64,000 nucleotides of DNA from Methylocystis sp. KS32 (GTDB taxonomy: Bacteria > Pseudomonadota > Alphaproteobacteria > Rhizobiales > Beijerinckiaceae). Each line of letters starts with the position of its first letter. Position 1 is the first letter of the stretch. Positions 18,440 to 34,825 of this stretch are shown piece by piece. The translations under genes were made by a program, and so were the position numbers. Where the stretch lies: the NCBI GenBank assembly GCA_002862095.1, contig PHSQ01000005.1:1-64000 (forward strand), in the 5' to 3' direction. Below the pieces are notes generated by a model. It was not told the origin of the DNA. It saw nothing but the letters and a program-made list of their open reading frames with translations, and made no database searches.

Positions 18440-18460
18440 TTGTGTTTCCTTCGTTTAGTT

Positions 18461-19278: not shown

Positions 19279-19279
19279 A

Positions 19280-19882: not shown

Positions 19883-19909
19883 GAGTTCAATCTCCGTGCT
19901 GCAATAATC

Positions 19910-20490
19910 ACGCGAGAGCGTTTGCAATTGCAACGGCTGTTTCTTGCAAACTATTTCGCGCGTGTGAGCGACATCATTCAGGTCATCGCCAAGGGCTTCG
20001 CCGCGCGATGCGGCGCGTTCTATGGTGCGACGATCCTTGCCAATTGCCTGCGCTGAATGTGAAACGAACGACAAAATGTCGTTCGTTTTTCTGGCGTTTG
20101 AAGCATTAGCTTCCGCCTTCGTCTCCGGGTGCAATTGCTCGTAAATTTGCTTGCAGCCGATAGAAGGACGGATCGGTTGTCATCAAGACCTATTTCGCGC
20201 GCCATATTCTTCGCGTCGTCCGAGAGCCCGGCGACCTTGACGGCGCGATGTGCGTCATCTTTATCAACGCCGAGTTCCCGCGCTGCGGCGCGTATGCCGC
20301 TCTCTTTATGTTGCGGGCCTCTGCGGCGACCATCTGGCAACGTCTCTAAGAGACTGCTGTCGGCGCAACTTGCGCCGGCAGTCTCTTCCGCCAGCCGAAT
20401 CCATTCTGCGACATGCTCATCGCGTTCGAGAGCAGTGAGTTCCGCGCGGGCGAGGTTCTCGTCATCCGCATCGAAAGCCGTCGCGAACAT
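19910..20490 (-). pseudogene. ParB-like partition protein remnants (two fused fragments)
   Basis: From 20490 the frame reads ENLARAELTALERDEHVAEW, then SGIRAAARELGVDKDDAHRA and AREIGLDDNRSVLLSAASK, matching the central and HTH part of ParB proteins but lacking the N-terminal ParB/Srx domain. Just downstream, in another frame, IYEQLHPETKAEANASNAR and GKDRRTIERAASRGEALGDD match the HTH region of a second ParB type. The two pieces are joined near 20130 and neither is complete, so this looks like a recombined or decaying gene. A functional short protein (156 aa) from the first frame cannot be excluded. Confidence 0.5.
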
Positions 20491-20875
20491 TTAGGATTTG
20501 TCGCCATGCCAATGCGCGACCGTGATTCAATTCGACGATGTTTACGAGCGATTGTCTTGCGGCCTTGCAGATCGGCGGCGTGCGCGACGCGACGCGACCA
20601 AGATCGAAGCTCAAGCTCTTCGCAGCGCCCGATTGCGTCATGCCGCTGTAGTGTTTTGCGAGAGCCTCGCGTATGGCGTCGTCACGCCGCTCAAGACGCG
20701 TCCGTTCGTCCGGCGGGAAAATAAACTCGTCGCCTCCCACGAAGAAAGATTCGGCGCTTTCCCGCTTCTCGTCGTCGCTCAATAGCTGCGTCGCCTCAAG
20801 CCATCTTGAAAACTTCAAAGCGGCCATGGCGCGCCACGCCAGACGGTGAATGGCGTCTTGAGTCTCAGGCTTCAT
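20462..20875 (-). CDS. Hypothetical protein (137 aa)
   Basis: The frame begins MKPETQDAIHRLAWRAMAAL and contains a helical middle (RDDAIREALAKHYSGMTQSG). The start overlaps the end of the 51-aa gene by 11 bp, and its end overlaps the ParB-like remnant. No domain is recognised. It belongs to the minus-strand run between the candidate origin and the protease. Confidence 0.5.
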   Translation of the reverse strand: MKPETQDAIHRLAWRAMAALKFSRWLEATQLLSDDEKRESAESFFVGGDEFIFPPDERTRLERRDDAIREALAKHYSGMTQSGAAKSLSFDLGRVASRTPPICKAARQSLVNIVELNHGRALAWRQILNVRDGFRCG

Positions 20876-21023
20876 TCCGGCCCCCTATCGATTCCCGCGC
20901 CTGCGATGGCCGCTGATGCGATTTGGCTGTTTTTGACATTGGCCTAGCGGGCGCATTGCATGAGGCCACTAGGCGGCCCGCGCTCGCGTCCAATTCCCGG
21001 CGGGCGACGATTTTGCCGTTCAT
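20865..21023 (-). CDS. Hypothetical small protein (52 aa)
   Basis: The frame from the ATG at 21023 begins MNGKIVARRELDASAGRLVA and is basic overall. Its stop overlaps the next gene's start region, which suggests translational coupling. It is the first gene after the candidate origin, transcribed away from it. The ribosome site is weak (GGCGGA). Confidence 0.4.
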   Translation of the reverse strand: MNGKIVARRELDASAGRLVASCNAPARPMSKTAKSHQRPSQARESIGGRNEA

Positions 21024-21147
21024 GTTCCGCCGGGTCGGAGTTCCGGCTGGAATGGCGTCCACGATAAGGTCAATGTGAAGCGACCAATTTGGAATGTTTT
21101 TCTAGGCATTGGGGGGTTCCGTAAGCGCGAATGGTTAAGCTCTAGCC

Positions 21148-21273
21148 ATGACGCACATGACGCACAATGACGCACTTCTATAGAAGTCCCCCTGTACACG
21201 CGTGTGCGCGCGCGCGCACATGGTGGTTCTATGAAAGTGCGTCATTGTGCGTCATGTGCGTCATGTGCGTCAT
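21148..21273. other. Candidate replication origin of island 1: inverted iteron arrays
   Basis: Three copies of ATGACGCAC (21148-21175, one extra A between the second and third) are repeated inverted as GTGCGTCAT (21237-21264), with a fourth inverted copy at 21265-21273. The arms (21148-21177 and 21235-21264) are a perfect 30-bp inverted repeat around a 57-bp spacer that contains an alternating CG/TG purine-pyrimidine tract. It lies in a gene-free region 175 bp past the 3' end of the VapE-like helicase gene. Iterons next to a primase/helicase gene suggest a replication origin. Confidence 0.6.
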
Positions 21274-21447
21274 GCCGGCCGGTTTGCGAAGACAACGAGC
21301 GTCGTTGCGCCGGGGAAGTGCCAAGAGGGAAAATCTGGCGTCTCTAGCGTGAGCCCGTGAGCATCGGCAAAGGCTTGTCCCTTCTCGCGGTTGAAGGAAT
21401 AGAGGTGAGCGGCGATGGCGACGGCGCGGCTGTAATTGCGTCATATT

Positions 21448-22719
21448 TTAGCTGTCCTTTGGAACGTAGCCGCGCCCGCGATAATCTTTAATTGCTTTCC
21501 AGCCGAGTCGCTGGAGTGCGGCTGCGATTCGGCGTTGCTCAAGCGTTCCGACCCGCTCGACTTTTATATCAAGCGCTTCGCGAGCTATTTCCGTGACGCT
21601 CACTCGCGTAGCGTTGCTCACGTAAGCCTTTATGACTTCCTGCCAAACGTCCTCTTCGAAACGGTCCTCTTGCTCGCCCGCAATGTGTAGTCGCTCGAAG
21701 TCGCTACGGGGCCACCATTTTTCGCCCGCGCGATAGGCGTGGACGGCTTCCGCGAATAGCTGGTCTCTGGCCATCGCAAGTCCGTCTGTGTCGATTGTTC
21801 CGACCACAACCGGCCAATATCGGCGCCCGCCGGTTTCGTCTCTCAAATATTTCGATTTGTTCGTGGTTCCGACAAAGACGCATTGACGGGGCTCAATGAC
21901 TTCCTTTCGCCCATAGGCGGGGCGATAGCGTTCGACGGGGCGCGTCAGGAACGCCTTTAGCGCGGCGTCTTCGGCGCGGCTTAGCGAGGCCATTTCGGCT
22001 ATTTCCACAAGCCACTTGCCGCAAAGATGTTGCACAACGTCTTTGCCCGCCGTGACGTCTGGTAGATTATCGGAGAACCATTGGCCGCCTAGGATCGCGC
22101 ACGCTGTTGACTTCCGTGCGCCCTGCGGCCCTTCAAAGACCAGCATGTAGTCGGATTTGCATCCGGGGGCGAAGATGCGCGCGACCATCGCTATAAGGAA
22201 TAGCTTACCAATGCCGGAGGTGTATGGCGTGAGTTCCGCGCCCATGTATCGATGCAGCCAAGCGGCAACGCGCGCTTCGCCGTCCCATCGCAGAGAATCG
22301 AGATAACTCCTTACCGGGTGGAACGCGTTCTCCTGCGCTCGAAGATCAATCGCGCTGTGGACGGTTTCCTTGGATATGCGGGTGAGTCCCTCGCGTTGCA
22401 GCCATTCCTGCAATTGCACGGCGTCCGTGTCCGTGACAAGGCGGGGCAATTGTTGTTCGACGCGGTTCAGAACATTAGGAATCGGCGCCACCAGCATCGC
22501 GGCGCGTTGCATCTCGTCGAAGGCGAACGCGCGCGCCAACGCCGGGACGTGGCGCAATCCAAGCATCGCGTTTGCGAGATTTGGGATCGGTGTTTCGCGA
22601 TGGTCAAGTTGTGCGCCGGCCAGCCAATCGGGGACGATGATTTTTGGCTTGTGAGGTCTTTTCCGCAGCGCCCTCGGCTCAATGACTTCGACGCTTTCGA
22701 ATTTAGGAAGCGCGCTCAT
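21448..22719 (-). CDS. VapE/VirE-like P-loop helicase (423 aa)
   Basis: The C-terminal virulence-associated-E domain starts at about residue 130 (SYLDSLRWDGEARVAAWLHR). It has a Walker A variant EGPQGARKSTACAIL, the DNLPDVTAGKDVVQHLCGKW segment, a Walker B-like LVEIAEMA and a sensor VFVGTTNKSKYLRDETGGRR. These are SF3/D5-related helicases found in satellites and plasmids next to Toprim primases. Its start overlaps the primase stop (ATGA), so primase and helicase are made together and should act at the adjacent iteron region. Confidence 0.85.
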   Translation of the reverse strand: MSALPKFESVEVIEPRALRKRPHKPKIIVPDWLAGAQLDHRETPIPNLANAMLGLRHVPALARAFAFDEMQRAAMLVAPIPNVLNRVEQQLPRLVTDTDAVQLQEWLQREGLTRISKETVHSAIDLRAQENAFHPVRSYLDSLRWDGEARVAAWLHRYMGAELTPYTSGIGKLFLIAMVARIFAPGCKSDYMLVFEGPQGARKSTACAILGGQWFSDNLPDVTAGKDVVQHLCGKWLVEIAEMASLSRAEDAALKAFLTRPVERYRPAYGRKEVIEPRQCVFVGTTNKSKYLRDETGGRRYWPVVVGTIDTDGLAMARDQLFAEAVHAYRAGEKWWPRSDFERLHIAGEQEDRFEEDVWQEVIKAYVSNATRVSVTEIAREALDIKVERVGTLEQRRIAAALQRLGWKAIKDYRGRGYVPKDS

Positions 22720-23588
22720 AGGGCGCCCTCGCTTTCTCGAAGAGCGTCGTTGAAGTCGCGACCGGGCGATAACGGTCTGTGCACGAGAATTCTGCTTCGC
22801 CTGTGCGCTTCCGCCGTGCGCCTTATCGCGTTCTCACCGGCGTCGTCGCCATCGGCAAATAAGTGCAGCTCGCGAACGCAATCGGGGATCGAAACAGAGT
22901 GCATCCGCGCCGCGCCAAGGCAGGCCCAAGTCGGAACGCCGAATAGGCGCATAGCGCTCAATGCGGTTTCAACGCCCTCCGCTAAGCCAAGCACATTGGT
23001 CGCGGCCCCGAATCTCACGGCGCCGTCGCGCATGGCGCCGAAGGTTCGACGGGGGAATTTCGTTTGAGCCTTACGGTCTCCGCGAGGATCAAGCATCGTG
23101 ATTTGCACCGCGACAACGCGACGGTCCCCAGCCTGTATCGCCGCGACCATCGCCGGAAGGTAAATGCGGCCCGGCAAATGCGGGTAGGCGGGAAGGTATC
23201 GAAGCGACGGCGGCGGATCGAAGGTTATCCCACGCGCTCGCAAGTAGGTCTCGCCAAGCGTGCCTTGGATCGGTTCCGCCCCTTGCCAGAGTTGGAGCGC
23301 GTAAGGGTCGGGCTCAACCGGCGCGGGCGGCGAAAGCATTGGCGTGCGAGGGTGTTCCCGCTGCGTTTCGTCATTCAATCCGCGTTGGCCAAGGGCGGCT
23401 AGAACGTCGCGCGGATCGCAGCCGCCGAAACAGTAAACGAGCAGCTTACCGTCGCGGCCATCGGAAACGCTAAGCGAAGGTGAGCGATCGCCCCGGCCCT
23501 TGCCATGCGAAGGAACAGGGCAACGGCATAAGAACCCGCCGCCGTGGCGAACGCCTTTGAGAGTTTTTGCAATATCGGCGGCATTCAT
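22716..23588 (-). CDS. Toprim-domain DNA primase (290 aa)
   Basis: An N-terminal zinc-finger-like region has the Cys pattern FLCRCPVPSHGKGRGDRSPS with YCFGGCD (~20-57). The Toprim domain follows from ~195: LGLAEGVETALSAMRLFG (catalytic Glu) and LFADGDDAGENA (DxD). This is the primase pattern seen in alphaproteobacterial prophages and mobile elements. It is coupled to RusA upstream and the VapE-like helicase downstream by 4-bp overlaps. Confidence 0.88.
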   Translation of the reverse strand: MNAADIAKTLKGVRHGGGFLCRCPVPSHGKGRGDRSPSLSVSDGRDGKLLVYCFGGCDPRDVLAALGQRGLNDETQREHPRTPMLSPPAPVEPDPYALQLWQGAEPIQGTLGETYLRARGITFDPPPSLRYLPAYPHLPGRIYLPAMVAAIQAGDRRVVAVQITMLDPRGDRKAQTKFPRRTFGAMRDGAVRFGAATNVLGLAEGVETALSAMRLFGVPTWACLGAARMHSVSIPDCVRELHLFADGDDAGENAIRRTAEAHRRSRILVHRPLSPGRDFNDALRESEGAL

Positions 23589-24100
23589 CGTTCGGCCGCC
23601 TCTTCCAGCGAGGAAACCGCGACCGTTACGCCTGCGACGGGACCATAAATTTCCTGGACTTCGAGGGCGGCGATTTGGGCGTCGTCTTCGTAGACTATGG
23701 AGTTGATCGCATCGGCAACGAGCTTCGCCACGTTGTCAGCATCAGGTCGCGCCGTTCGCCATCGCGCCGCGTCACGGCGTTTCTTCGTCCATGAGCTAGG
23801 CACGATGTAGCTGGCGCGGATCGCCATGCGTAATGGCCCCGACATCGGCGGCGCGCCGGCCATCGCCTTCGCGGCGGCGAGCTTCGCGAGCGCCATAAAG
23901 TCACGTTGTCGTTTGGGCGTGAACCTGATTTTTCCGTTTCCGCCGCTGCGAGCGAAAGCGACAGGTTCGCCGGGGATCGTGAAGGCAACGAATTCCGCTT
24001 GGCTTCCGATGCTCTCGGCGCTATAATTTTTGGGTTCGTTGTGGTAGTTGGCTAGGCCCTCGGCGTCACCAGCGCCGGGGCCTTTTCTTTGGTGTGTCAT
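23585..24100 (-). CDS. RusA-family Holliday-junction endonuclease
   Basis: This 171-residue protein has the RusA pattern: FTIPGEPVAFARSG at ~40 (substrate strand) and RPDADNVAKLVADAINSIVY then EDDAQIAALEVQEIYG at ~120-155 with the metal-binding acidic residues. RusA resolvases cut Holliday junctions formed during phage replication. The N-terminal ~35 residues are unusual and Asn/Gly-rich, so an internal start is possible. It is coupled to the primase by ATGA. Confidence 0.82.
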   Translation of the reverse strand: MTHQRKGPGAGDAEGLANYHNEPKNYSAESIGSQAEFVAFTIPGEPVAFARSGGNGKIRFTPKRQRDFMALAKLAAAKAMAGAPPMSGPLRMAIRASYIVPSSWTKKRRDAARWRTARPDADNVAKLVADAINSIVYEDDAQIAALEVQEIYGPVAGVTVAVSSLEEAAER

Positions 24101-24103
24101 GGC

Positions 24104-24367
24104 TCACGCGGCCTCGCTGTGTGAGAGACGGGCCGGAAGCTCGGAAGAGGATCGGATAGGCTGCGACATGCGGCCATTGGCCCAGTCGAGCGCATCGCCC
24201 CATCTGTAAATCGGACGGCGCCCAAAGAGGCGATAGGCCGGGCCGCCCCCGCGCGTCACCATCGAATCAAGCGAGTTTTTCTTGACGGGGAAGCCGGCGG
24301 CGGTGAGCGCTTCGGCAAGCTGCTTGCGCGTCAAAAGCGCGTCCGGGCTTTGGGGAATCGTAGTCAC
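24104..24367 (-). CDS. HTH DNA-binding protein, AlpA/excisionase-like (87 aa)
   Basis: The helix-turn-helix (ALLTRKQLAEALTAAGFPVK, then LDSMVTRGGGPAYRLFGRRP and IYRWGDALDWA) has the MerR-like layout of AlpA and Xis proteins: a winged helix whose wing is the GGGPAYRLFGR strand. Such proteins control integrase expression or bend att DNA during excision. It is the first gene of the replication run (RusA, primase, helicase). Confidence 0.75.
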   Translation of the reverse strand: MTTIPQSPDALLTRKQLAEALTAAGFPVKKNSLDSMVTRGGGPAYRLFGRRPIYRWGDALDWANGRMSQPIRSSSELPARLSHSEAA

Positions 24368-24448
24368 TTGTGGTCACTCCTGATTTGAAGTGACGCCCAA
24401 TTTAACCACGTTTTTGAGTCTGTCTTTTCCTCATTCAAATCGGAAAAG

Positions 24449-25117
24449 TTATTTTTTTGGGTCGCGCTCTTGGAAGGAAAGTTTTGACGGGACTATCTCA
24501 AGTTCGGGCGCCAGCCGGATCGCAGCGCCGGGCGCCATGAGCGGCTTTGGGCTTTGTCGCGTGCGCGTCCCTTCGGCGGCGATTCGATAAGCTTCGGCGG
24601 TTTCGAGAAAGCCTCTTATCCCTCCTATCTCGCACGGGAATGCCGGGTTGCCGTCCAGCGCTTCGTCCAGCCATGCCGCCCAAAGCGGCGCGACGGGCCG
24701 GAATGACGGCCAAAGGTCATTATCGAAAATCTTTTTGGTCACTGTGTCGCCTGCGACGCGTCGAAATTCCGCCGCAAGCGTGATCGTATGACCTAGCGCG
24801 ACGCGCCCGACACATTCGCGTAAAACCATGCCTGCAATCGCTCCACGCCGAAACGGCGTGAGCGCCCCATGCCGAATATGGTCGAGGGGAAAAGACAGGC
24901 GCGAAAGCTCCGCGAATAGTCTTAGGTCTTCGGGCTCCAATCCGTCCACGTAGGGCGCGCTATGTTCGATGGCGGCTGTAGTCAACGCAGCTTCGCGCGC
25001 GGCCTTGTCGGACGGCCAAAGCATCGTCGCCTCGATCATGGACAAGTGAAGCCGGGCCGGGTTTTCGAGTGCTTCTAGGCCAATGGGGATCGTTAGACGG
25101 TTCTCAGTCGTCAGCAT
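24449..25117 (-). CDS. Hypothetical protein downstream of the integrase (222 aa)
   Basis: From the ATG at 25117 the protein begins MLTTENRLTIPIGLEALENP. It is alpha-helical, with SRLSFPLDHIRHGALTPFRR and VGRVALGHTITLAAEFRRV. No named domain was recognised. The start overlaps the integrase stop by 14 bp, so it is likely co-expressed with the integrase. Confidence 0.6.
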   Translation of the reverse strand: MLTTENRLTIPIGLEALENPARLHLSMIEATMLWPSDKAAREAALTTAAIEHSAPYVDGLEPEDLRLFAELSRLSFPLDHIRHGALTPFRRGAIAGMVLRECVGRVALGHTITLAAEFRRVAGDTVTKKIFDNDLWPSFRPVAPLWAAWLDEALDGNPAFPCEIGGIRGFLETAEAYRIAAEGTRTRQSPKPLMAPGAAIRLAPELEIVPSKLSFQERDPKK

Positions 25118-26345
25118 GGCGGCGCGCCTTTCCCATCGAAGAGATTCTCTCAGCAATTGCGTTCGCCGCTGCGACAAGGACGGCATCGGCGGCGTGCGTG
25201 TAGCGCGAAGTGACGCTTTGCCCCTTGTGTCCGATCAGTGCCGCAATGACGGGCTCAGAATATCCCATGTCCGCCGCGAGCGACGCGTAGGAATGTCTGA
25301 AAACATGCGGCGTCACATCCGCCGGCAATTCGGCGCTGGCGGCGATGCGGCTCCAGATTTTCGGAAAGCTGGCCAGCGGGCAATCGCCATTCGGCGCGGG
25401 GAAAACATACGTCCCGGCGCGCGGCCTCGAATTGATGATGTCGCGCGCGACGGCGGATAAAGGGCGCGCGGAAAATCCCGTCTTGGTTTCCTCCAGCCGG
25501 GCGATGTTTGCATCTAGATCAAGGTCTCGCCATTTGAGCTTGAGAGCTTCCCCCCGTCGCCAGCCCGTGAAGAGAAGGAAACGCGTCGCTTCAACGCCGT
25601 TAGGCCAGAGATTGTCAGGGGGTCTGTCGAGCGCGCCAAGCAGGGCGGAATACTCACTGCTAGACAATCGACGGCGCCGATTTTGATAGGCGTGACGATC
25701 AACTCCTGTCACTGGATTATCGGGCCGGAAGCCCTCTCGCACGGCGTATGAGAAAATCGCTCCGAGTAGTCCTAGCGCGCGCGTCGATGTTCCCTTGCCC
25801 CCCGTGACGCGCGCAAGCCCTCGTTTCCCGGTCTTAACTGAAACCGCCGTCCGACCTTCGGCTACAGCGTCGCGAAAATTTTCAACGTCGCGCCGGGTAA
25901 CGTCCTTTATTTTCATCGCGCCAAGCACGGGCAGGATATGACGGTCTATTCTTCCCCGGTCTCCGTCTAGCGTGGCGGCTTTTTTCGCCGCTCCTCTTCG
26001 TGTCAGCAATCGGCCCGCTTGCGTCGCCTCTCGATAGAGGGCGCAAATGTCAGCGACCGTCTCGGCGCGGCGTTCGGTGAGCTTTTCTTGAGACGGATCG
26101 CCCCCGCGCGCGACTTCGCCAAGGATACGCTTCGCTTCGGTGCGCGCCATATCGGGAGTCCACGGCGCGCCGTGGCGCCCGATGGTATGCCAGCGCTGTT
26201 TACCTGTTTTCGTCCGAAATTTGACGAAATAGGCGACGGCGTCTCCCTTCTGGCGTCTTGCGCCAAACCCTGAAACCGCACCTTTCCCGGCGTCCCACAA
26301 GGTCGAATTTGGGGCGATGGTAGCTACTTCTGTCTTTGTAATCAT
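25104..26345 (-). CDS. Tyrosine-type site-specific integrase of island 1 (413 aa)
   Basis: The N-terminal DUF4102-type arm-binding domain (GKGAVSGFGARRQKGDAVAY) is followed by the core-binding SAM-like domain (~95-190) and the catalytic domain with Arg in LLFTGWRRGEALKLKW, HVFRHSYASLAADMG (HxxR), LIGHKGQSVTSRYTHAAD (His and the Tyr nucleophile). All catalytic residues are present. It lies 155 bp inside attR and should recombine the 66-bp att sites within tRNA-Thr. Confidence 0.93.
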   Translation of the reverse strand: MITKTEVATIAPNSTLWDAGKGAVSGFGARRQKGDAVAYFVKFRTKTGKQRWHTIGRHGAPWTPDMARTEAKRILGEVARGGDPSQEKLTERRAETVADICALYREATQAGRLLTRRGAAKKAATLDGDRGRIDRHILPVLGAMKIKDVTRRDVENFRDAVAEGRTAVSVKTGKRGLARVTGGKGTSTRALGLLGAIFSYAVREGFRPDNPVTGVDRHAYQNRRRRLSSSEYSALLGALDRPPDNLWPNGVEATRFLLFTGWRRGEALKLKWRDLDLDANIARLEETKTGFSARPLSAVARDIINSRPRAGTYVFPAPNGDCPLASFPKIWSRIAASAELPADVTPHVFRHSYASLAADMGYSEPVIAALIGHKGQSVTSRYTHAADAVLVAAANAIAERISSMGKARRHADD

Positions 26346-26364
26346 AGTTGTGGCGCGCTCATTC

Positions 26365-26384
26365 TAGCTACCACATAGCTACCA
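26365..26384 (+). promoter_or_regulatory. Candidate integrase arm-type site, right
   Basis: Identical to 13529-13548 in sequence and orientation. It lies 20 bp upstream of the integrase start codon and 115 bp inside attR, so it may also overlap the integrase promoter and give autoregulation. Confidence 0.65.
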
Positions 26385-26499
26385 CGAGAGAATAAACCCG
26401 CGCAAGCGCTAGCAAGCGCATTCAAGCGTAATTCAAGTTATATCAAGGCTCTAGCAAATTCGATCAAATGAGAACAAAACAGGAAAAACAAGGGGAATG

Positions 26500-26565
26500 C
26501 CCTTGGTAAGGGAGAGGTCGAGAGTTCAATCCTCTCTTGCAGCACCATAAAATCAAAGACTTATG
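26500..26565 (+). repeat. attR of island 1 (66 bp)
   Basis: A perfect copy of 13435-13500. It is only the 3' part of tRNA-Thr and has no 5' half, so it is not a tRNA gene. Confidence 0.95.
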
Positions 26566-26926
26566 AAATGTGTCCGCGCCGTCACGATCACTCTAGGCAG
26601 CGGCTGCCGGGCTGTCGAGCTGGGGCAGGCGCGCGGGGAAGCCATCGGAGCAGACTATTCGATGGCTGATGAACCTCTTGCCCTTCGCCACGGACACTGT
26701 TTGCAACGGCCTCGGACAGCTATGGAGCGAAGCCCGCGACCTCAAGCGCGCCCGGAAACGCTGCTTCGAACACATCCGAACAATCGCCGCCTATCTCCTC
26801 TTTCGAAACTGGCGCACCCTCATGACGACTCCCATAAACTCCAAACCGCCCCCGAAATCGAAAAACAGATCGAAGGCTGAAACTCCCGGGGGGGGGATTA
26901 GAATGGCTGAGGGGCAATACAGCTCC
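26566..26926. other. Spacer between island 1 and the next tRNA, no confident gene
   Basis: Open frames exist (26563-26880, and 26669-26992, the latter running into the tRNA gene), but neither shows a known domain or a good ribosome site, and the second ends inside the tRNA. A 9-G run occurs at 26888-26896. The stretch is probably decayed DNA or chromosomal spacer. Confidence 0.4.
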
Positions 26927-26956
26927 TTGACACCCGTCGCGAAGGACCTCTATAGG
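26927..26956 (+). promoter_or_regulatory. Promoter of the tRNA gene
   Basis: A perfect TTGACA (26927-26932), an 18-bp spacer and TATAGG (26951-26956) lie 13 bp before the tRNA 5' end, an ideal position for a stable-RNA promoter. Confidence 0.7.
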
Positions 26957-26969
26957 TGTGGCGCTTTCG

Positions 26970-27046
26970 GGCGGAGTAGCTCAGTCGGCTAGAGCAGAGG
27001 AATCATAATCCTTGTGTCGGGGGTTCGAATCCCTCCTCCGCTACCA
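26970..27046 (+). tRNA. tRNA with CAT anticodon, probably tRNA-Met
   Basis: The cloverleaf has acceptor GGCGGAG / CTCCGCT (first pair G-U), D-arm AGCTCAGTCGGCTAGAGC, an anticodon arm with loop ATCATAA (anticodon CAT), T-arm GGGGG-TTCGAAT-CCCTC and encoded CCA. It resembles alphaproteobacterial elongator tRNA-Met. A lysidine-modified tRNA-Ile2 also has CAT and is not excluded. Its 3' end (from 27030) is the attachment site for island 2. Confidence 0.9.
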
Positions 27047-27051
27047 AATCC
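27030..27051 (+). repeat. attL of island 2 (22 bp)
   Basis: TCCCTCCTCCGCTACCAAAT followed by CC covers the 3' side of the T-arm, the acceptor strand and CCA of the tRNA plus 5 bp. The same 22 bp recur at 51508-51529. Confidence 0.88.
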
Positions 27052-27159
27052 CCATTCGCCGGCGTTCGCTAACGTCAATAATCGACGGAAAATCAGCCAC
27101 TTAATGCAATGAAAGCGTCCGCACAGGTCCGCTGGCGTCCGCTTGCATCCAACAATTTT

Positions 27160-27209
27160 GTTGGTAGCTTCGTTGGTAGCTCCTCCTACCAACAAACCTC
27201 GCTACCAAC
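27160..27209. promoter_or_regulatory. Candidate arm-type sites of island 2, left
   Basis: Repeated GTTGGTA boxes occur (GTTGGTAGCTTCGTTGGTA at 27160-27178) followed by inverted copies (CTACCAAC at 27187-27194 and GCTACCAAC at 27201-27209), ending at the integrase start codon. A near-copy of the paired box lies at 51428-51446 near the other end. The arrangement suits integrase binding and autoregulation. Confidence 0.6.
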
Positions 27210-28439
27210 ATGCCCCTCACCGATCTTCAGGTAAAAAACGCCAAGCCCGGTGCCAGCATCATCAAGCTGAGCGACGGTGGTGGCTTGCAGCTCTGGATCA
27301 CGCCCGACGGGGCCAAGCGTTGGCGTCTTGCCTATCGCTTCGACGGCAAGCAGAAGGCGCTCGCGATCGGGGTCTATAAGGTGAAGGGCGGGATGAGCCT
27401 GAGCGAGGCGCGCGAGGCGCGGGAAGCGGCCAAGAAGCTTCTGGCCGGCGGGCAAGACCCGTCGATCACCAAGAAGGTCGCGAAGGCCAGTCGGATCGAG
27501 GCCAGCGCCAACACCTTCGACGCCATTGCCGCTGAACTGCGAGCGAAAAAGGAGCGCGAAGGCAAAGCGCCCGGCACGCTCGACCGCTACGACTGGTTGA
27601 TCCGCCTCGCTGGCCCCGCGATTGGCGCGCGCCCCATAGCCGAGATTACCTCGGCGGAGGTTCTCGCCGCTCTTCGCGTCGTCGAGACGCGGGGAAGGCA
27701 CGAGACCGCGCGAAAAATGCGGGCAGTGATCGGCGAGGTCTTCCGCTACGCCGTGGCGACTAATCGAGCCCAGGGAGACCCCACCACGGCGCTCAAGGGA
27801 GCGTTGACCACGCCGATCGTCACACACCGCGCCGCAATTATCGAGCCGAAGGCGTTCGGCGCCCTCTTGCGGGCGATCGCCGACTATGAGGGTGCCCCCG
27901 AGACGCGCGCCGCTCTCGAATTGCTCGCCCTTACCTTCGTGCGGCCGGGCGAGCTTCGAGCGGCCGAGTGGGCGGAGTTCAACTTGGACGCCGCCGTCTG
28001 GGTCATCCCCGCCGAGAAGATGAAAATGCGCCGCCCGCATCGCGTCCCCCTGGCGCCGCGCGCCATCGCAATCCTGCGCGAACTTCACGCCATCACCGGG
28101 CGCGGCAAGTTCGTTTTCCCGTCCGTTCGTTCGCGCGAGCGCTGCATGAGCGAGAACACCGTCTGCGCCGCCCTGCGCCGTCTCGGCTTCCAGAAGGACG
28201 AGATGAGCGGTCATGGCTTCCGCTCTGCCGCGTCGTCGATGTTGAACGAATCGGGCCTGTGGAATGCCGACGCGATTGAGCGCCAGCTGGCGCACGTGGA
28301 CGCCGACGCGGTGCGTAAGGCCTACGCCCGCGCCGACTTCTGGGACGAGCGCGCGAGGATGATGCGTTGGTGGGCTGATCGCTGCGAGGAGATGCAGCGC
28401 GGCGTTGTCGTCAACATGGTCGGCGAGAGCGTCGCCTGA
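27210..28439 (+). CDS. Tyrosine-type site-specific integrase of island 2 (409 aa)
   Basis: A P4-type integrase. The N-terminal DUF4102 arm-binding domain (MPLTDLQVKNAKPGASIIKL, LSDGGGLQLWITPDGAKRWR) is followed by a core-binding domain (~95-190) and the catalytic domain: Arg in LTFVRPGELRAAEW, MSGHGFRSAASSMLNE (HxxR), LAHVDADAVRKAYARADF (His and Tyr). It starts 164 bp from the tRNA 3' end, the usual place for P4-like island integrases, and carries all catalytic residues. Confidence 0.94.
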   Translation: MPLTDLQVKNAKPGASIIKLSDGGGLQLWITPDGAKRWRLAYRFDGKQKALAIGVYKVKGGMSLSEAREAREAAKKLLAGGQDPSITKKVAKASRIEASANTFDAIAAELRAKKEREGKAPGTLDRYDWLIRLAGPAIGARPIAEITSAEVLAALRVVETRGRHETARKMRAVIGEVFRYAVATNRAQGDPTTALKGALTTPIVTHRAAIIEPKAFGALLRAIADYEGAPETRAALELLALTFVRPGELRAAEWAEFNLDAAVWVIPAEKMKMRRPHRVPLAPRAIAILRELHAITGRGKFVFPSVRSRERCMSENTVCAALRRLGFQKDEMSGHGFRSAASSMLNESGLWNADAIERQLAHVDADAVRKAYARADFWDERARMMRWWADRCEEMQRGVVVNMVGESVA

Positions 28440-28546
28440 CGCCAAACTCTTCAGATTCGGGCGGCAATCATGCCCCTGAGAGCGGCCAAAGCGAGACGCG
28501 GCAACGTCTCGCTCGGCCTTCACGTTGAGAAAGAGGACTTCTCGCC

Positions 28547-28864
28547 ATGTCTGAGCACGATAGCACGGAAACCGGAAGCATCGGAAATTCTCCGATCCCC
28601 AGGCCACATTTTTCGACAATCGAAGCATTTGTTCGCGAGCTTGTCGAAGTCAACGCGCAGCACGCTCGCTTGCACGTCAGCGATGCCGGCGACGCGGCCA
28701 TCGAGCCTGTCTATCAGCGGCACTGGGCGATTCGAGAAGCCATCAACTCTACGCCGTCGTGTTCCTTGTCGGAACTCCGCGCAAAGGCGCGCGCCGTGCG
28801 GATCGCGGCGGAATTGGACGAAGACTTTGCGTGTCACGTTCCGGGCTCTACTTGCTTACGATAG
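28547..28864 (+). CDS. Hypothetical protein (105 aa)
   Basis: The protein begins MSEHDSTETGSIGNSPIPRP and is helical after residue 22 (FSTIEAFVRELVEVNAQHAR). An AAAGAGGA ribosome site precedes the ATG. No family is recognised. It is the first gene after the integrase in the same orientation. Confidence 0.6.
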   Translation: MSEHDSTETGSIGNSPIPRPHFSTIEAFVRELVEVNAQHARLHVSDAGDAAIEPVYQRHWAIREAINSTPSCSLSELRAKARAVRIAAELDEDFACHVPGSTCLR

Positions 28865-28975
28865 GCGGCGCGTAGAGGCGCTACGAGACGTGCGGGGATA
28901 GGCTGGCCAGCCGACAAGCGAGATAGTCCGCTCGCTTCCTCGTGCCCCACACGGGCGCTCGCGAAGGGCTGCGCG

Positions 28976-29980
28976 ATGAATGTTAATTCCGCCAACTACC
29001 GCCGGACACGTCTCAAGCCGTCATCCTCTGCACGGCTGGAACGATGGGCGCTCGCGTTACGAGGCGCGCAGATAGAGCGGAAAGGCAAGCACGTTCTCGA
29101 CGACGCTGGCCTTCAGACGCACATCAAGCGTCGTTTCGAGAGTGAGTGGCTTCGAGACGGCGCGCCGGCCGACGTGTTGATCGCGATCCGCACGACGTTG
29201 GGCGTCGAGAGTGTCGAATATTGTCTCTCACGAGTCGAACTTCGCGCGTTCCTCATGAACGAAGAAGCGAGAGCGTGGCGAAACACACTCATCTCCGCGT
29301 GGGAACAGGACTATGTGTCGTTATCCGCCGTCGTCTGGTGGATCGCGTCAAGCGGCGCGCCGCGCGACTGCGACGACGACGACTTAGAGAGCGCCGCGAA
29401 GACGTTATTGCGTCAGGTGCGATCCAAGGAGGCCACACTGACCGCCTGGGGACGCCAGAGGTCGAACTTGTCGAAAGAAGAAATTCCGAGGAACGTTCTA
29501 GCCGATGCCATGCCTTTCTTGGGCATGGACGAGCACAAGTTCTTTTCGAGCGCCCCATGCGTGCACTGGAACTCTACGCTCGACAATGAGCGCACTGACG
29601 TAATCGAAGACAAGAGCGGCGCAAGGACTTGGTGCGACATTTCGATAGAGCTTGAGGACATGCTCCGTCTGTGGCCGAAGATGCAAGTCAAGGCCACCCT
29701 TCCGACAGAAGGCCCCGTCACGATCGGCGCTGACTCTGCCGAAGACCCGCTGGCCCCATACAAAACCGGCGCGCAAGGTAGGCCGTCGCCGATACAACTT
29801 ATCGAACGAGAGGCTGAACGTCGTCGCGCGTCAGGAGAAGCACTGGAAAAGCTGACGGACGAAGCGAGATACTTGAGCGATTGGTGCGCCCGTCAACATC
29901 CAAACGCGCCAACCCCAACGTCGAAAACGATAGAAAACCGAATACGACCCGACCACCGAAATTGGAAAGCCACGAAGTAG
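28976..29980 (+). CDS. Hypothetical protein (334 aa), possible regulator or replication accessory
   Basis: The protein begins MNVNSANYRRTRLKPSSSAR and contains two helical parts (~40-180 and ~260-334). The C-terminal third, AEDPLAPYKTGAQGRPSPIQ then DEARYLSDWCARQHPNAPTP and KTIENRIRPDHRNW, resembles DNA-binding regulatory tails seen in alphaproteobacterial islands but is not a named domain. It ends 8 bp before a rho-independent terminator, so it closes the first transcription unit of the island. Confidence 0.55.
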   Translation: MNVNSANYRRTRLKPSSSARLERWALALRGAQIERKGKHVLDDAGLQTHIKRRFESEWLRDGAPADVLIAIRTTLGVESVEYCLSRVELRAFLMNEEARAWRNTLISAWEQDYVSLSAVVWWIASSGAPRDCDDDDLESAAKTLLRQVRSKEATLTAWGRQRSNLSKEEIPRNVLADAMPFLGMDEHKFFSSAPCVHWNSTLDNERTDVIEDKSGARTWCDISIELEDMLRLWPKMQVKATLPTEGPVTIGADSAEDPLAPYKTGAQGRPSPIQLIEREAERRRASGEALEKLTDEARYLSDWCARQHPNAPTPTSKTIENRIRPDHRNWKATK

Positions 29981-29986
29981 CTCCGA

Positions 29987-30018
29987 CCCCCCCAGAATTA
30001 GGATTCTGGGGGTTTTCA
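29987..30018 (+). terminator. Rho-independent terminator
   Basis: A 10-bp perfect stem CCCCCAGAAT (29989-29998) / ATTCTGGGGG (30003-30012) with a 4-nt loop is followed by TTTTC. It separates the 334-aa gene from the replication operon starting at 30096. Confidence 0.88.
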
Positions 30019-30057
30019 TTTGGCGTTTATAGGGGGCGCAGTGCCTCGCATGGTCCG

Positions 30058-30087
30058 TCCACGTTGTCGAACAACAGCGAACGTGGA
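30058..30087. promoter_or_regulatory. Nested palindrome upstream of the AlpA-like gene
   Basis: TCCACGTT (30058-30065) is repeated inverted as AACGTGGA (30080-30087), and inside it GTTGT-CGA-ACAAC forms a second palindrome. It ends at the ribosome site of the AlpA-like gene, so it could be an operator or a translation-control hairpin. Confidence 0.5.
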
Positions 30088-30095
30088 GAAGCGAC

Positions 30096-30332
30096 ATGCC
30101 CCCCATCCCTTCCGAGCAGCAGTCGCCTTACGACGGCGGCGAGCATTTCGACCAGTTCGCCTATTCCATCCCTGATGTTTCCCGCAAAACCTCGATAGGC
30201 CGCACCGCGATTTACGAGGAAATCAAGGCTGGCCGTCTCAAGGCGCGTAAGGCGGGTCGCCGCACTGTGATCCTCGATCCCGATTTGCGCGCGTGGCTCG
30301 CGTCTCTGCCGCAGGTCAACGGGGCGGCCTAA
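30096..30332 (+). CDS. AlpA-like/excisionase-type HTH regulator (78 aa)
   Basis: The HTH_17-type winged helix lies at residues ~25-65: FAYSIPDVSRKTSIGRTAIY then KAGRLKARKAGRRTVILDPD. AlpA homologues activate integrase and replication genes in P4-like satellites. The GGAGAAG ribosome site is good. The stop overlaps the ATG of the primase/helicase gene by one base (TAATG). Confidence 0.85.
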   Translation: MPPIPSEQQSPYDGGEHFDQFAYSIPDVSRKTSIGRTAIYEEIKAGRLKARKAGRRTVILDPDLRAWLASLPQVNGAA

Positions 30333-33300
30333 TGACGCTCGCGCCGCATGGTCTCCACGAAAATTCGCCCGTCTGCGAAGAGCCGCTCCTCGACCAAGGC
30401 GCCGGCGAGACGGTCACCGACGACAGCCGCGCCGAATCGAAGCGGCTAATCACGCTGACTGTCATCGACGCCAAGCTCCCGTCGGTCTTGTCTAAGAGCT
30501 TCTCATTTCGCGCCGACGGGACGCTTGAGAAGCGCAGCGGCGGCCAGCTCGAAGAAGGCAGGGCGCGGAAGGTCGAACTGGACGGCCCCGTCTCTTACGC
30601 CGCACTCTTGGTGAGCCTCGGGCCGCATCAGGCGCTTATGCACGGCGTCTTGCAGCATGACGACGCGATCGTCGTGAGCAAAAAGCGCCTCGAACAAACG
30701 CGGCGTCAGAAACGCGACCGTCCCGTGGTCACCCGGACCAAGGACTGCACGTCGTGGCCGGCGGGGCCGGGCGTCCTGATGCTCGACTACGACCCCACGG
30801 AAGGCGAAACGCCTCTCACGTCTGCCGAGTTGCGCGAGAAGATTTATGAGGCCGTTCCCGAACTCAGGAACACGCCGATTGTCTGCCGTCCTTCCGCGTC
30901 GTCTTGTATCTACGCCGCGAGCGACGGGAGCGAACTGCGTGGCGTGCGCGGTCAGCGCATTTACGTGCTGGTGCAAGACGCGCGCGACATTGAGCGCGCC
31001 GCGAAGGTGCTGGAAGCGCGCTTGTGGCTGCAAGGCCACGGCCATTTCGCTGTCTCGAAGTCCGGCCGCCTTCTCGAACGCACCTTGATCGACGGCGCGG
31101 TGTTCCAGCCGAGCCGCCTTGACTTCGCCGGCGGGGCCAAATGCGGCGCGGGCGTGACGCAACGCCTTCCCGCGCCGGAAGTCTTCAATGAGGAGGCGCC
31201 CTATCTCGACACCACTATGGCGCTTCCCGATCTCTACGGCGTAGAGCGTCGCCATCTCGAAGGTCTTAAGAAAGCCGCGCGAGACGCGAAGGCCGGGGAA
31301 GCGAAAGCCGCGCGCGAACGGTGGGTCGAAGAGCGCGTCGGCGCCTTCGCCGCAGCCTGCGATGAGCCCGACGCGACCAAGCGCGAGGCGCGCATCGCCG
31401 GATTCGCGGCGACCTGCCGCGCCGCGATCGAAGACGGGCGTCTGTTTGGGGATTTCGAGATCGTGTTCGCCAACGGGACGACGGCCACGGTTGGCGAAAT
31501 CCTCGACAATCCCAGCAAGTATCATGGGCGCGAAACCCTCGATCCTATCGAACCCGGCTACAAGAACGGCCGCTCGGTCGGTTGGATCAACCAGCGCGCT
31601 GGCGGACGGCCCTATCTGTGGTCTTTCGCGCATGGCGGCCGGCGCTATCAGCTCGTCCGCGCACGGAGGACAATCACGCTCTTGAAAGGCGAGCGCGCCG
31701 ACGTGTTCGCCAAGACGATGGAGCTGCTTCGTCACGACGGTTCGCTTTACGAGCGCGGCGGGATGCTGACGCGCATCCTCGGCAATCGCACGACGCCGGT
31801 CCTTCTCGAATGGCTCTTGCTGCATCTCGACCGCACCATTCGCTTCGAGACGCTCCGCGAGTCCAAAGAGGGTGATCTTGTTTCCGTCGCGCAAGACGCG
31901 CCTCTTTGGCTCGCGCAGCGAATCGTCAAGGCGGCGGGCGAGTGGGGCTTGCCGCAACTCAACGCCGTTCTCGACGCGCCGACGCTGGACCCGAAGACCG
32001 GGCGTGTCATCGCCGAGGACGGTTTCGACGAGAAGTCCGGGCTCTACCTCCAATTGCCGCCGAATGTCGATCCGATCAATGAACACGTCGGTGAAGCAGA
32101 GGCGCGCGAGGCGTTGAAGTTCTTGTGGCGTCCGTTCGAGAAGTTTCCGTTCGCCGACGCGACGGACGACACGAACGGCCGTATGTCGCGCTCCGTGTTT
32201 CTGGCCGCGCTCCTGACCGCCGTCGTCCGCCGTCTGTTGGCGACCGCGCCGGGCTTCCTCATCAGCGCGACCTCGCCGGGAAGCGGAAAGACGCTGTTGG
32301 CGCTGTGTCTGGCGGCTCTGATGTCCGCCGATGAGCCGGACGTGCTCGGTGTCCCGGAAGGCGTCGATGAGAATGAACTGAGCAAGCTGTTGCTCGCCAA
32401 GGCGATCAACGGCGCCCCGACGCTCTTCTTCGACAATATCGCGGGCATGTTCAAGTCGGCCGCGCTGTGTGGCTTCCTCACGTCGTCCGTCTATGAGGGC
32501 CGAATCCTCGGCGTCTCGCAAACGACGAGCGTCAAGACGAACAGCTTGCTCGTCCTGACCGGAAACCACCCGATCATCGTCGGCGACCTGAACCGCCGGC
32601 TGCTTCGTTGCGAGCTGGACCCGCGCACGGAGACGCCGCACAAGCGCTCCTTCAAGCTCGATCCGCTCGAATATTGCCGCGAGCATCGGCTCGACATGGT
32701 GCGCGCCGCGCTGATCTTGCTCAAGGCGTGGCACAATGAGGCCGCTCCGAAATTCACGTCGGACAGGACCGCGAGCTTCGAGACTTGGTCCGACACTATC
32801 CGGCAGGTCGTAATCTGGATCGGCCGCAATGGTTGGCTCGACGTGGCCGATCCGGTCACGTCGATCGACGCCGGTTTCGAGGCCGACCCCGACACGCGGA
32901 AGCTCGACGCCCTTTTGCGGGCGTGGGAGGCGGAATTTGGCGCTGCGCGCCACCCGGTCAAGGCTCTGCGGCGCTATGCGGAAAACAGCGAGACGGAACT
33001 TTTCGAGGCCCTCGACGAGATCGGCGTTGTCGATCGCGGCGCGTTGAACCCTCGCCGCCTCGGCCGGTGGATCGAGCAACGCGCCGGACGCATCGTGGCG
33101 GGCCGCCGGTTTGTGCAGGACGGGTCGAAGTCGAACGCGCTGCTTTGGCGTGTGGAGGTTCTGGGTCCGAGCGAGCATCGGCCGGAAACAGGTGAGTTTG
33201 GTGAGTTTGGTGAGTTTTCTACCCCCTACGCGAAGAACGAAAAATCGGATGAAAATGAAAATGGAAATGGGCTGAAACAAACTCACCAAACTCACCAAAC

Positions 33301-33346
33301 TCACCAAAATTACCCTTGGCGCCGTCCGGCCGGAGGCGCCCAATGA
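30332..33346 (+). CDS. Primase/helicase-like replication protein (1004 aa)
   Basis: From the ATG at 30332 the N-terminal half resembles an archaeo-eukaryotic-type primase: WPAGPGVLMLDYDPTEGETP with the acidic DYDP pair at ~150, then PSASSCIYAASDGSELRGVR and a His-containing strand. A P-loop ATPase occupies ~600-800 with Walker A ATSPGSGKTLLALC, Walker B APTLFFDNIAG and sensor SLLVLTGNHPIIVGDLNRR. The C-terminal ~55 residues are low-complexity because they are encoded by the inverted iterons (GEFGEFGEF and QTHQTHQTHQN). It is coupled to the AlpA-like gene before and the helicase gene after it. Confidence 0.8.
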   Translation: MTLAPHGLHENSPVCEEPLLDQGAGETVTDDSRAESKRLITLTVIDAKLPSVLSKSFSFRADGTLEKRSGGQLEEGRARKVELDGPVSYAALLVSLGPHQALMHGVLQHDDAIVVSKKRLEQTRRQKRDRPVVTRTKDCTSWPAGPGVLMLDYDPTEGETPLTSAELREKIYEAVPELRNTPIVCRPSASSCIYAASDGSELRGVRGQRIYVLVQDARDIERAAKVLEARLWLQGHGHFAVSKSGRLLERTLIDGAVFQPSRLDFAGGAKCGAGVTQRLPAPEVFNEEAPYLDTTMALPDLYGVERRHLEGLKKAARDAKAGEAKAARERWVEERVGAFAAACDEPDATKREARIAGFAATCRAAIEDGRLFGDFEIVFANGTTATVGEILDNPSKYHGRETLDPIEPGYKNGRSVGWINQRAGGRPYLWSFAHGGRRYQLVRARRTITLLKGERADVFAKTMELLRHDGSLYERGGMLTRILGNRTTPVLLEWLLLHLDRTIRFETLRESKEGDLVSVAQDAPLWLAQRIVKAAGEWGLPQLNAVLDAPTLDPKTGRVIAEDGFDEKSGLYLQLPPNVDPINEHVGEAEAREALKFLWRPFEKFPFADATDDTNGRMSRSVFLAALLTAVVRRLLATAPGFLISATSPGSGKTLLALCLAALMSADEPDVLGVPEGVDENELSKLLLAKAINGAPTLFFDNIAGMFKSAALCGFLTSSVYEGRILGVSQTTSVKTNSLLVLTGNHPIIVGDLNRRLLRCELDPRTETPHKRSFKLDPLEYCREHRLDMVRAALILLKAWHNEAAPKFTSDRTASFETWSDTIRQVVIWIGRNGWLDVADPVTSIDAGFEADPDTRKLDALLRAWEAEFGAARHPVKALRRYAENSETELFEALDEIGVVDRGALNPRRLGRWIEQRAGRIVAGRRFVQDGSKSNALLWRVEVLGPSEHRPETGEFGEFGEFSTPYAKNEKSDENENGNGLKQTHQTHQTHQNYPWRRPAGGAQ
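33191..33305. other. Candidate replication origin of island 2: inverted iterons inside the primase 3' end
   Basis: Three tandem copies of GGTGAGTTT (33191-33217) and three tandem inverted copies AAACTCACC (33279-33305) form a perfect 27-bp inverted repeat around a 61-bp A-rich spacer. It lies within the last 160 bp of the 1004-aa primase/helicase gene and ends 38 bp before the next gene. The geometry matches the island 1 structure (three 9-bp units, about 60-bp spacer, inverted units) with a different iteron sequence. Confidence 0.6.
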
Positions 33347-34557
33347 CCGCTCCGGCGCTCTCCCAGCACCAGCAAGACGCCCTGCGCGCCTTGCTGCAAT
33401 TGCTTGAGACGGAAGAGGTTGTGGCTCTTCGCGGACTCGCCGGAACCGGCAAATCGACGCTTATCCCGCACGTCGCCAACGCCGTCGCGGACCCGAAGGT
33501 CGCGGCGATGACGCACAAGGCGGCGGCGGTCCTGCGCGCCAAGAGCCTCGACAACGCGAAGACGTTCCACGCGGCCTGCATGAAGCCGATCTTCAGCAAC
33601 GCATACCTCGAATTGCTGGCGTGGTTCACGGCCCCGAACGCCCCGTATCCGGCGTTGCTGCGTGGCATTGACCGCGACCGCGCCGGCGCGGTCGTCGCCG
33701 AATGTTTCCCGGAACTCGGCCCGGAAGGCTGCGCCCGAGCGCTCGGCGTCGATTCGTCGAAACACATTGTCGCCTGGGAGCCGCGCGCGCATGTCGGCGG
33801 AACGCTGATCGTGGACGAAGCCAGCATGGCGACCGTCGAACACGTCAGAACGGCGCTCGAAGTGTTCGATCGCATCATTCTCGTTGGCGACCACGGGCAA
33901 TTGCCGCCGGTGAAGGGCGAGCCCGTTCTTGAGATCGCGCCGGGCGTCGAGTTGACCGAAATCCATCGGCAGGCAGGCGACTCGCCCATCCTCCGCCTCG
34001 CTCACGCCGTCCGAAATGGCGCCTCCCTCTGGCAGGCGGGCGTGCAGCAAATCGAGCGCGGCGTTGATCCCGAGGCCGGGCCGATCCTCACATGGCGCAA
34101 CGCGCCACGCGTCGAGCTTTCGTTGGAGATGCGCCGCCTCAAGGGCTTACAAGCAAATCGTCTGGAACACGGCGAACCGCTCATTTGCACGAACAAGGAC
34201 ACGCGCTTTCAGCGTCTTGGCTTCAAGAACAACACGGCGTGCACGTATGTGAGCGACGGTGTTGTGTGCCTCGACAAAGGCCAGCGTCTTCGTGCTCCCA
34301 AGGTGAATATCGAGGATTTCACCGGACGCGAGGCGAACTTCGACGAAGTTGGCTTTCGCCTTGGCTATGCGCTCACGGCGCATAGCGCCCAAGGCAGTGA
34401 ATGGCCCAACGTGCAGGTCTACTACGAGGACGTGCAGGCGTTGCACGGACGAGGGGCCGAGTTTCGCGCGAAATGGCTCTACACCGCGATCACGCGCGCG
34501 AAGGAGTCCGTGAGCTTCTTCACCGCGCCGATCGCAAGAACAAGAATCGCAGTGTGA
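33343..34557 (+). CDS. RecD2/Dda-like SF1B helicase (404 aa)
   Basis: From the ATG at 33343 the protein shows motif I ALRGLAGTGKSTLIPHVAN, motif II TLIVDEASMATVEH, motif III ILVGDHGQLPPVKGE, motif IV region LTEIHRQAGDSPILRLA and motifs V/VI YALTAHSAQGSEWPNVQVYY and WLYTAITRAKESVSFF. It is close to the phage Dda/RecD2 minimal form. It unwinds DNA 5'-3' and may serve replication of the element. The start overlaps the primase stop by 4 bp (ATGA). Confidence 0.92.
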   Translation: MTAPALSQHQQDALRALLQLLETEEVVALRGLAGTGKSTLIPHVANAVADPKVAAMTHKAAAVLRAKSLDNAKTFHAACMKPIFSNAYLELLAWFTAPNAPYPALLRGIDRDRAGAVVAECFPELGPEGCARALGVDSSKHIVAWEPRAHVGGTLIVDEASMATVEHVRTALEVFDRIILVGDHGQLPPVKGEPVLEIAPGVELTEIHRQAGDSPILRLAHAVRNGASLWQAGVQQIERGVDPEAGPILTWRNAPRVELSLEMRRLKGLQANRLEHGEPLICTNKDTRFQRLGFKNNTACTYVSDGVVCLDKGQRLRAPKVNIEDFTGREANFDEVGFRLGYALTAHSAQGSEWPNVQVYYEDVQALHGRGAEFRAKWLYTAITRAKESVSFFTAPIARTRIAV

Positions 34558-34578: not shown

Positions 34579-34809
34579 ATGGCCCGCGAACTCAGCGACG
34601 ACCCTTTGTTCGACATTATCGCTGGCGTCGCGCGCGATCGCCGCAATGAAATCGGCGATGCGGCAGACCTGAGGCGCGATCCGGTGTTCGCGGCGGCTCT
34701 GGTCTTTGTCGGCCTCGATCATTGGCGAGACGAATCGCACCCCGAACAACGAATGGAACGCGTGCGCGGAATCATCGAGGCCCTGCGGCCGGCCGCCGGC
34801 GAGGAATAA
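34579..34809 (+). CDS. Hypothetical protein (76 aa)
   Basis: A small protein (MARELSDDPLFDIIAGVARD, then EQRMERVRGIIEALRPAAGE) that is helical and acidic. A GGAG ribosome site is well placed. It lies between the RecD-like helicase and the small terminase gene in the same operon. No known family. Confidence 0.65.
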   Translation: MARELSDDPLFDIIAGVARDRRNEIGDAADLRRDPVFAAALVFVGLDHWRDESHPEQRMERVRGIIEALRPAAGEE

Positions 34810-34825
34810 GGAAAGGATCAAGGAC

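Follow-up and report, generated by a model that had tools for sequence, protein, structure and literature searches.

Inverted iteron arrays at the 3′ ends of helicase genes as candidate replication origins of two integrated islands in Methylocystis sp. KS32

The first 64 kb of contig PHSQ01000005.1 of Methylocystis sp. KS32 (hereafter the window, 64,000 nucleotides from the start of a contig in a genome of 3.36 Mb) carry two integrated elements in tandem, which we call island 1 and island 2. Each contains a group of short repeats (iterons) at the 3′ end of its helicase or primase-helicase gene, and this group faces an inverted group of the same repeats across a spacer of about 60 bp. This raises the question of what such arrays do and why they stand at this place. 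Our analysis argues that each island starts its replication at its own array, that this array is read by the C-terminal domain of the island's own initiator and that iteron word and reading domain form a replaceable address, a reading to which we assign a probability of roughly 0.87. What we say of the arrays, their position, their core and their joint change with the initiator draws on comparison, as does what we say of the predicted fold.

In island 1, three copies of ATGACGCAC on the forward strand (21148–21175, starting at 21148, 21157 and 21167) form the set distal to the helicase gene, and four copies of the complement of this word on the reverse strand (21237–21273, starting at 21237, 21247, 21256 and 21265) form the proximal one. 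The core between them (21176–21236) has an ATAGAA box at each edge, one per strand, a run of five C and a CG-alternating center. The perfect arms measure 31 bp (21147–21177 and 21235–21265) with 57 bp between them, the spacer counted from iteron to iteron is 61 bp, and 174 bp separate the array from the stop of the open reading frame (ORF) for a VapE-like helicase, the candidate initiator (21448–22719, reverse strand). In island 2, the array lies inside the last 156 bp of the ORF for a primase-helicase (P0001; 30293–33346, forward strand), which counted by hand has 1017 aa from a GTG and 1004 aa from the first ATG. Here, three copies of GGTGAGTTT on the forward strand (33191–33217, starting at 33191, 33200 and 33209), coding for GEF GEF GEF, face three inverted copies, AAACTCACC, on the reverse strand (33279–33305, starting at 33279, 33288 and 33297), which code for THQ repeats; the arms match at 27 of 27 positions, and the 61-bp core (33218–33278) has a TCTACCCCCTACGCG edge on its left side only. 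Each island holds a single array. Over the whole window the two iteron words have 6 and 9 matches, compared to 0.28 and 0.66 expected, and two of the nine lie outside the array. None of 60 dinucleotide-shuffled windows contained an array with a word length of at least 7 and at least five copies, while the real window contains exactly these two. The repeats, their inverted geometry and their position had been proposed in a sequence-only reading of the same DNA, whose coordinates are hereby confirmed; the 27-bp arms of island 2 and both spacers hold as well, but the arms of island 1 had been given as 30 bp and its distance to the helicase gene as 175 bp.

If the arrays belong to the helicases, they should recur beside related genes. 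We scanned viral contigs and species genomes for relatives of the island 1 helicase, taking at most the best 80 loci of each scan, and searched from −60 to +760 of the helicase stop, with windows of the same size elsewhere in the same loci serving as controls. Among the matches listed, the closest relatives are mostly alphaproteobacterial. After exclusion of open ORFs, of loci with less than 760 bp downstream, of the window's own copies and of P0001-type loci, 163 VapE loci were counted, and 95 of these carry an inverted iteron array at the helicase stop, compared to 17 of 1243 control windows. The count is the union of three detector settings with low control rates, picked on the same data. 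Settings with high control rates were set aside, namely (8,1,4) with 112/163 loci and 43/1243 controls, (9,2,5) with 114 and 78, (10,2,4) with 120/163 and 52/1243, and (10,3,6) with 91 and 179; an exact-repeat detector (56/176) was too strict and was replaced. An earlier count gave 83/172 loci, 8/1301 windows and 1/860 shuffles, but its set still contained the copies from the window itself and a number of P0001-type loci. Sorted by identity to the island 1 helicase, an array was called at 44/54 loci with at least 50%, at 35/79 with 40–50% and at 16/30 with less than 40%, and among the genome loci outside Pseudomonas at 55/68.

The Pseudomonas-like VapE loci, a group assigned from listings and delimited partly by judgement, are mostly negative at the standard position (array in 2/9 genome loci and 4/33 viral loci). 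At a relaxed setting, an array appears at +350 to +760 in 16 of 42 of them, compared to 1 of 719 control windows, and wherever annotation was seen these displaced arrays sit behind one small gene. At locus L131, a ATGACGCAC-type array (6989–7096) lies about 1.8 kb downstream of the helicase stop; displacement can hence exceed the scanned range. The array downstream of the helicase at locus L154 is expanded, with eleven GTGAGGAT-type copies in tandem on one side and two on the other.

The island 2 helicase belongs to a different family, whose link to the VapE family by profile comparison is only remote. The description of the two islands as unrelated is therefore correct in that they are separate insertions but too strong for their helicase cores, which are remote relatives (hhalign probability 75%, E 2.6e-5). 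The island 2 protein itself matches phrog_16593 (primase, aa 53–424) and, across its helicase half, phrog_29234 and phrog_10537, while no Pfam match and no sequence match in the PDB set was obtained. Its relatives were counted where the C-terminal end is complete, leaving aside loci with an open ORF or with a match that does not reach the C-terminal part. Of these 23, 15 have an array within the 3′ end of the gene, at this end or beyond it, at a relaxed setting in which a few calls are weak and the like of which fires in 43/1243 control windows. Searches of viral contigs for relatives of P0001 and L011 found none. A third, distant P0001-type helicase is present in the same genome (L018, contig 7, region 251355–252341), where a larger nested inverted repeat region of GCATCCTACGGGGG type with a CG-alternating center lies about 100 bp past the stop.

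The same rule holds more often in the L014 family of primase-helicases (77 viral loci, with L014 as seed), which is related to P0001 and shares its helicase half at 27% identity. An array was called from −500 to +300 relative to the stop in 49/64 usable genes, in 3/608 control windows and in 0/320 shuffles. A rigid template of three 9-bp units, a spacer of 44–75 bp and three inverted units scores at least 46 of 54 in 63 of 65 genes of this family (the other 12 of the 77 loci have an open or shortened ORF); the maximum of 40 shuffles is 36, and island 2 scores 54. These rows include near-duplicates, with 52 different among 61 N-terminal rows and 46 spacers reducing to 19 distinct ones. A PxWL-type motif stands within the last 12 residues, past the array, in 60 of 61 full rows (list read by eye); the array of the L014 family is thus coding. 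Within genes, successive repeats follow each other with a period of 9 in 178/187 steps, compared to 97/212 in the non-coding arrays of VapE loci (other steps are mostly 7, 8 or 10), as would be expected if the reading frame constrains the period. Since the in-gene repeats are translated, as this same PxWL-type motif indicates, they might have been selected as protein repeats (GEFGEFGEF and THQTHQTHQ) rather than as DNA. This explanation is scarcely credible, because the arms of island 2 are exact reverse complements of each other with wobble bases that are identical across the copies (GGT GAG TTT three times and CAA ACT CAC three times), and because the VapE family has the same layout in non-coding DNA. 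At loci L271, L276, L282 and L235–L237, two or more arrays follow each other with alternating orientation, which recalls the doubled crr of phage P4.

The DNA between the arrays is conserved in its own way. We compared 53 VapE spacers of 40–110 bp, taken from 80 thinned loci with an array (island 1 included), and the 19 distinct in-gene spacers. Within the first 16 bp from either edge, TT(T)CC occurs in 36/53 VapE spacers (50 shuffles: mean 4.8, maximum 8) and in 17/19 in-gene spacers (mean 2.4, maximum 5), and this edge is common to spacers that are framed by differing iteron words. Alternating purine-pyrimidine runs of at least 12 are found in 23/53 and 16/19 spacers, respectively, compared to 2.5 and 1.0 after shuffling. 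CCCCT-type boxes are present in both sets (35/53 compared to 19 shuffled for VapE, 14/19 compared to 2.8 in-gene), while TATAG-type boxes are common in VapE spacers only (28/53 compared to 11 shuffled; in-gene 1/19). With a mean AT content of 51% for VapE and 41% for in-gene spacers, 'AT-rich' is a poor description of these cores.

We then compared the arrays to characterized origins. For SaPIbov1, EfCIV583 and EcCICFT073, that is, for Staphylococcus aureus pathogenicity islands (SaPIs) and phage-inducible chromosomal islands (PICIs), the published passages describe the gene order primase-rep-ori, in which the origin stands at the 3′ end of rep and has a spacer between two sets of iterons, and name Rep as the initiator helicase (PMC6092414, PMC7581432); the position of the two sets directly 3′ of rep was, according to the passage concerned, tested for the E. 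coli PICI EcCICFT073 (PMC6092414). Both islands agree in that the array stands at the 3′ end of the initiator gene with two inverted iteron sets flanking a spacer (3+4 and 3+3 copies), in a discrete insertion with an integrase and attachment repeats, and in a primase/rep module accompanied, as in some PICIs, by a small terminase subunit gene. A SaPI-Rep-like AAA+ helicase initiator is likewise found. Since this layout has already been published, the arrays of the islands are not a new origin class. The same passages portray the spacer as AT-rich and the layout as shared with no other known replicon (PMC6092414, PMC7581432), unlike the alternating purine-pyrimidine spacer runs, the in-gene arrays and the occurrence in phages described here; the spacer of island 1 has 44% AT and that of island 2 a moderate 57%, compared to 39% for the window.

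This phage occurrence comes from nine fetched phage loci, four of which carry the array. They belong to named phages of 41.6–44.8 kb, namely Marinobacter PS3, the near-identical Staphylococcus 47 and SBK1, and Pseudomonas LPPA36, in which the array stands behind one more gene. Hence, the layout is not confined to satellites, and these arrays question the claim, as worded in the published passages, that it is unique to PICIs among known replicons. The sequence-only reading had taken it for a common origin class of such satellites; the comparison backs its commonness, its link to the helicase and its reading as an origin, but the layout was already in print and extends to phages. Besides this occurrence, the core that is not AT-rich, the in-gene family rule and the co-variation of C-terminal domain and iterons go beyond those published passages. 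We know of no report of the phage-wide form in the open-licence literature that was searched, which is no proof that none exists.

Phage P4 offers a different precedent. Its record annotates 8-bp type-1 repeats, direct and then inverted, adjoining the 3′ end of the gene for alpha, likewise a primase-helicase, in a region (crr) that differs from our arrays in comprising a pair of 120-bp copies, each of which holds two repeats, two more in inverted orientation and a fifth, and in being accompanied by a separately annotated origin. Two direct repeats of about 120 bp with type-1 iterons were found in neither island. As the P4 rep_origin is annotated at 9086–9809, about 4.5 kb away from the repeats, the island arrays could by analogy be operators or a replication-control (incompatibility) region, at which helicase or repressor shuts the operon or counts copies while replication starts elsewhere; the further arrays at L271, L276 and L282 would suit such a role. 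However, the arrays stand where the initiator gene ends and not upstream of the operon, the P4 record names the crr itself as a cis requirement of replication, and deletion of a PICI ori at the same position impaired plasmid maintenance, as the passage on it reports (PMC6092414). We thus regard a purely regulatory function as quite improbable and retain the origin reading.

For the island 1 helicase, a C-terminal winged helix is predicted at about aa 357–420, with helices and a hairpin in winged-helix order and with matches to SaPI5 and to PriRep1 (PDB 7pds), which we take to be a SaPI protein. Among relatives, the comparison suggests that iteron word and matching helicase end change together around a preserved core. 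The helicases of L104 (Methylobacterium terricola) and L105 (M. ajmalii) share 197 of 205 AAA+ residues and 33 of 67 winged-helix residues, and their iterons, CACGGCGCAC and CCGGACGAC, differ in all six copies. On the DNA level, identity is about 90% over the ATPase codons, 44–64% in the last 200 bp of the gene, 44% in the first array, 80% in the core (resting on one 50-bp window inside the spacer) and 30% in the second array, with background beyond. The L014 family behaves alike: between 15 genes with TGTGAACCT and 9 with GGGGAACCT (8 of the 9 in the tree analysis), all 30 fixed amino-acid differences fall into the final 135 residues (of 976), and 24 precede the codons of the array (counted by hand). 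Although L209 is 77–91% identical to the G rows, the fixed differences are nonetheless confined to these 135 residues. Between L211 and L229, a divergent block (−450 to −50) contains the C-terminal domain and the array, with flanks of about 95% identity, and inside this block the window holding most of the core is 90% identical. In a tree of residues 1–830 (23 rows) the word changes four times, with two independent pairs on well-supported branches, and in both pairs the diagnostic residue changes in step with the word.

Several results weigh against the proposed origin function or against reading of the iterons by the C-terminal domain. The array was not called at 68 of 163 VapE loci, and the sequence-only reading had named homologues without arrays as evidence against itself. 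This objection holds in part, since some of these loci have an array behind one further gene and some have visible sub-threshold repeats, while the remainder seem to lack it. An array was likewise not called at 8 of 23 P0001-type loci and was absent from five of the nine fetched phage loci (L184, L185, L186, L187 and L189, with L184 matched by its primase half only). By its AT content, the island 1 spacer would be a weak melting site. With regard to joint change, two independent pairs are too few for significance, and a partial Mantel test relates word distance to the ATPase core with 0.16 (permutation p 0.003) and to the C-terminal domain with 0.11 (permutation p 0.017), so that the ATPase core tracks the word at least as well. 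Sliding windows gave no unique C-terminal peak, with words of family 2 in mixed orientation adding noise. When pairs were binned by core identity, a difference in word went with lower C-terminal identity in four bins and with higher C-terminal identity in the fifth (0.80–0.85), where several listed words are of GCGCGC type and probably false calls. As array and C-terminal codons adjoin, a single tract of recombination might carry both along in the absence of any functional link, and the C-terminal domain would then have no role in reading iterons; some of the joint change may indeed be due to this neighbourhood. The single divergent block of L211/L229 with its conserved flanks conforms to this, as do the onset of divergence in the C-terminal codons of L104/L105, where nothing aligns downstream of the array, and the lack of preference for the C-terminal domain in the global distance tests. 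Such hitchhiking is nevertheless unlikely in our judgement, since in both pairs the core stays similar while the flanking arrays differ, since six copies all change together, and since passages on staphylococcal relatives describe binding of origin repeats via the C-terminal domain (PMC7581432). There, the SaPI Rep is said to recognize downstream iterons through this domain, and the isolated C-terminal domain of Cch2 from the staphylococcal cassette chromosome mec (SCCmec) binds a putative origin; its repeats, just downstream of the helicase gene, resemble our arrays in position, but binding there depends on the direct repeats, with the inverted ones being dispensable (PMC7581432).

With each array taken as the origin of its island, replication may proceed as follows; binding, loading, melting and bidirectional firing are here inferred from the named relatives. 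The initiator would be encoded by the island itself, as an AAA+ helicase in island 1 and as a primase-helicase fusion in island 2, and its C-terminal domain, the predicted winged helix in island 1, would bind the 9-bp iterons. Each of the two iteron sets would position one helicase ring, and their inverted orientation would make the two rings face each other across the core of about 60 bp. The core, with its TT(T)CC- or TATAG-type edges and often GC-alternating center, might be melted or threaded there, whereupon the encoded primase would start both forks. Iteron word and C-terminal domain would evolve as one replaceable unit, with core and ATPase unchanged by a swap. The location of the island 2 origin inside the coding end of its initiator fits this model, because 9 bp correspond to three codons.

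More generally, one origin type may serve several helicase families across phages and satellites, with a conserved core (TT(T)CC edges, TATAG or CCCCT boxes and often a GC-alternating center) and a replaceable address that joins the iteron word to a fitting C-terminal winged helix; by swapping addresses, related elements residing in the same cell could stay clear of one another's origins, and the origin could be written into its own initiator gene. We consider this extension slightly better than an even bet. For many uncharacterized phages and satellites, the 3′ end of the helicase gene indicates where the likely origin stands, the conserved core points to a step that is independent of the address word, and the natural pairs L104/L105 and L211/L229 make origin recognition by the helicases directly testable.

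The islands are separate insertions, each having one integrase and its own attachment repeats (66 bp and 22 bp), together with a primase/helicase module and a small terminase subunit gene. Island 1 spans 13435 to 26565. Its left end is a 66-bp repeat of the 3′ part of a tRNA-Thr gene (13408–13482), the attachment site (13435–13500, forward), with an exact second copy at the right end (26500–26565, forward). On the reverse strand, it encodes a terminase small subunit-like protein (16806–17279; phrog_57, E 2.6e-27), a prohead protease/head-like protein (18649–19296; PF04586; phrog_4523, E 1.2e-35), a Toprim primase (22716–23588; PF13362, PF23639), a RusA resolvase (23585–24100; PF05866) and a tyrosine integrase (25104–26345; PF00589). 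Among the part of its ORFs that was scanned, structural matches are head-protease-like and tail-fibre-like, and many ORFs have no match. Island 2 spans 27030 to 51529, between a 22-bp repeat at the 3′ end of a tRNA-Met gene (26970–27046; repeat at 27030–27051, forward) and its second copy (51508–51529, forward). Its forward strand encodes a tyrosine integrase (27210–28439; PF00589, PF22022), a Dda/UvrD-like helicase whose frame overlaps the initiator stop (33340–34557; PF13604, phrog_325) and a terminase small subunit (34706–35404; PF03592, E 3.3e-37). A tRNA-Arg called by ARAGORN at 30650–30749, within the primase-helicase gene, is probably spurious. Between 38065 and 51259, island 2 carries DarT-like, DUF4365, type I restriction (HsdM, HsdS-like and HsdR-like), uracil-glycosylase-like and DDE transposase genes, which probably constitute defence cargo.

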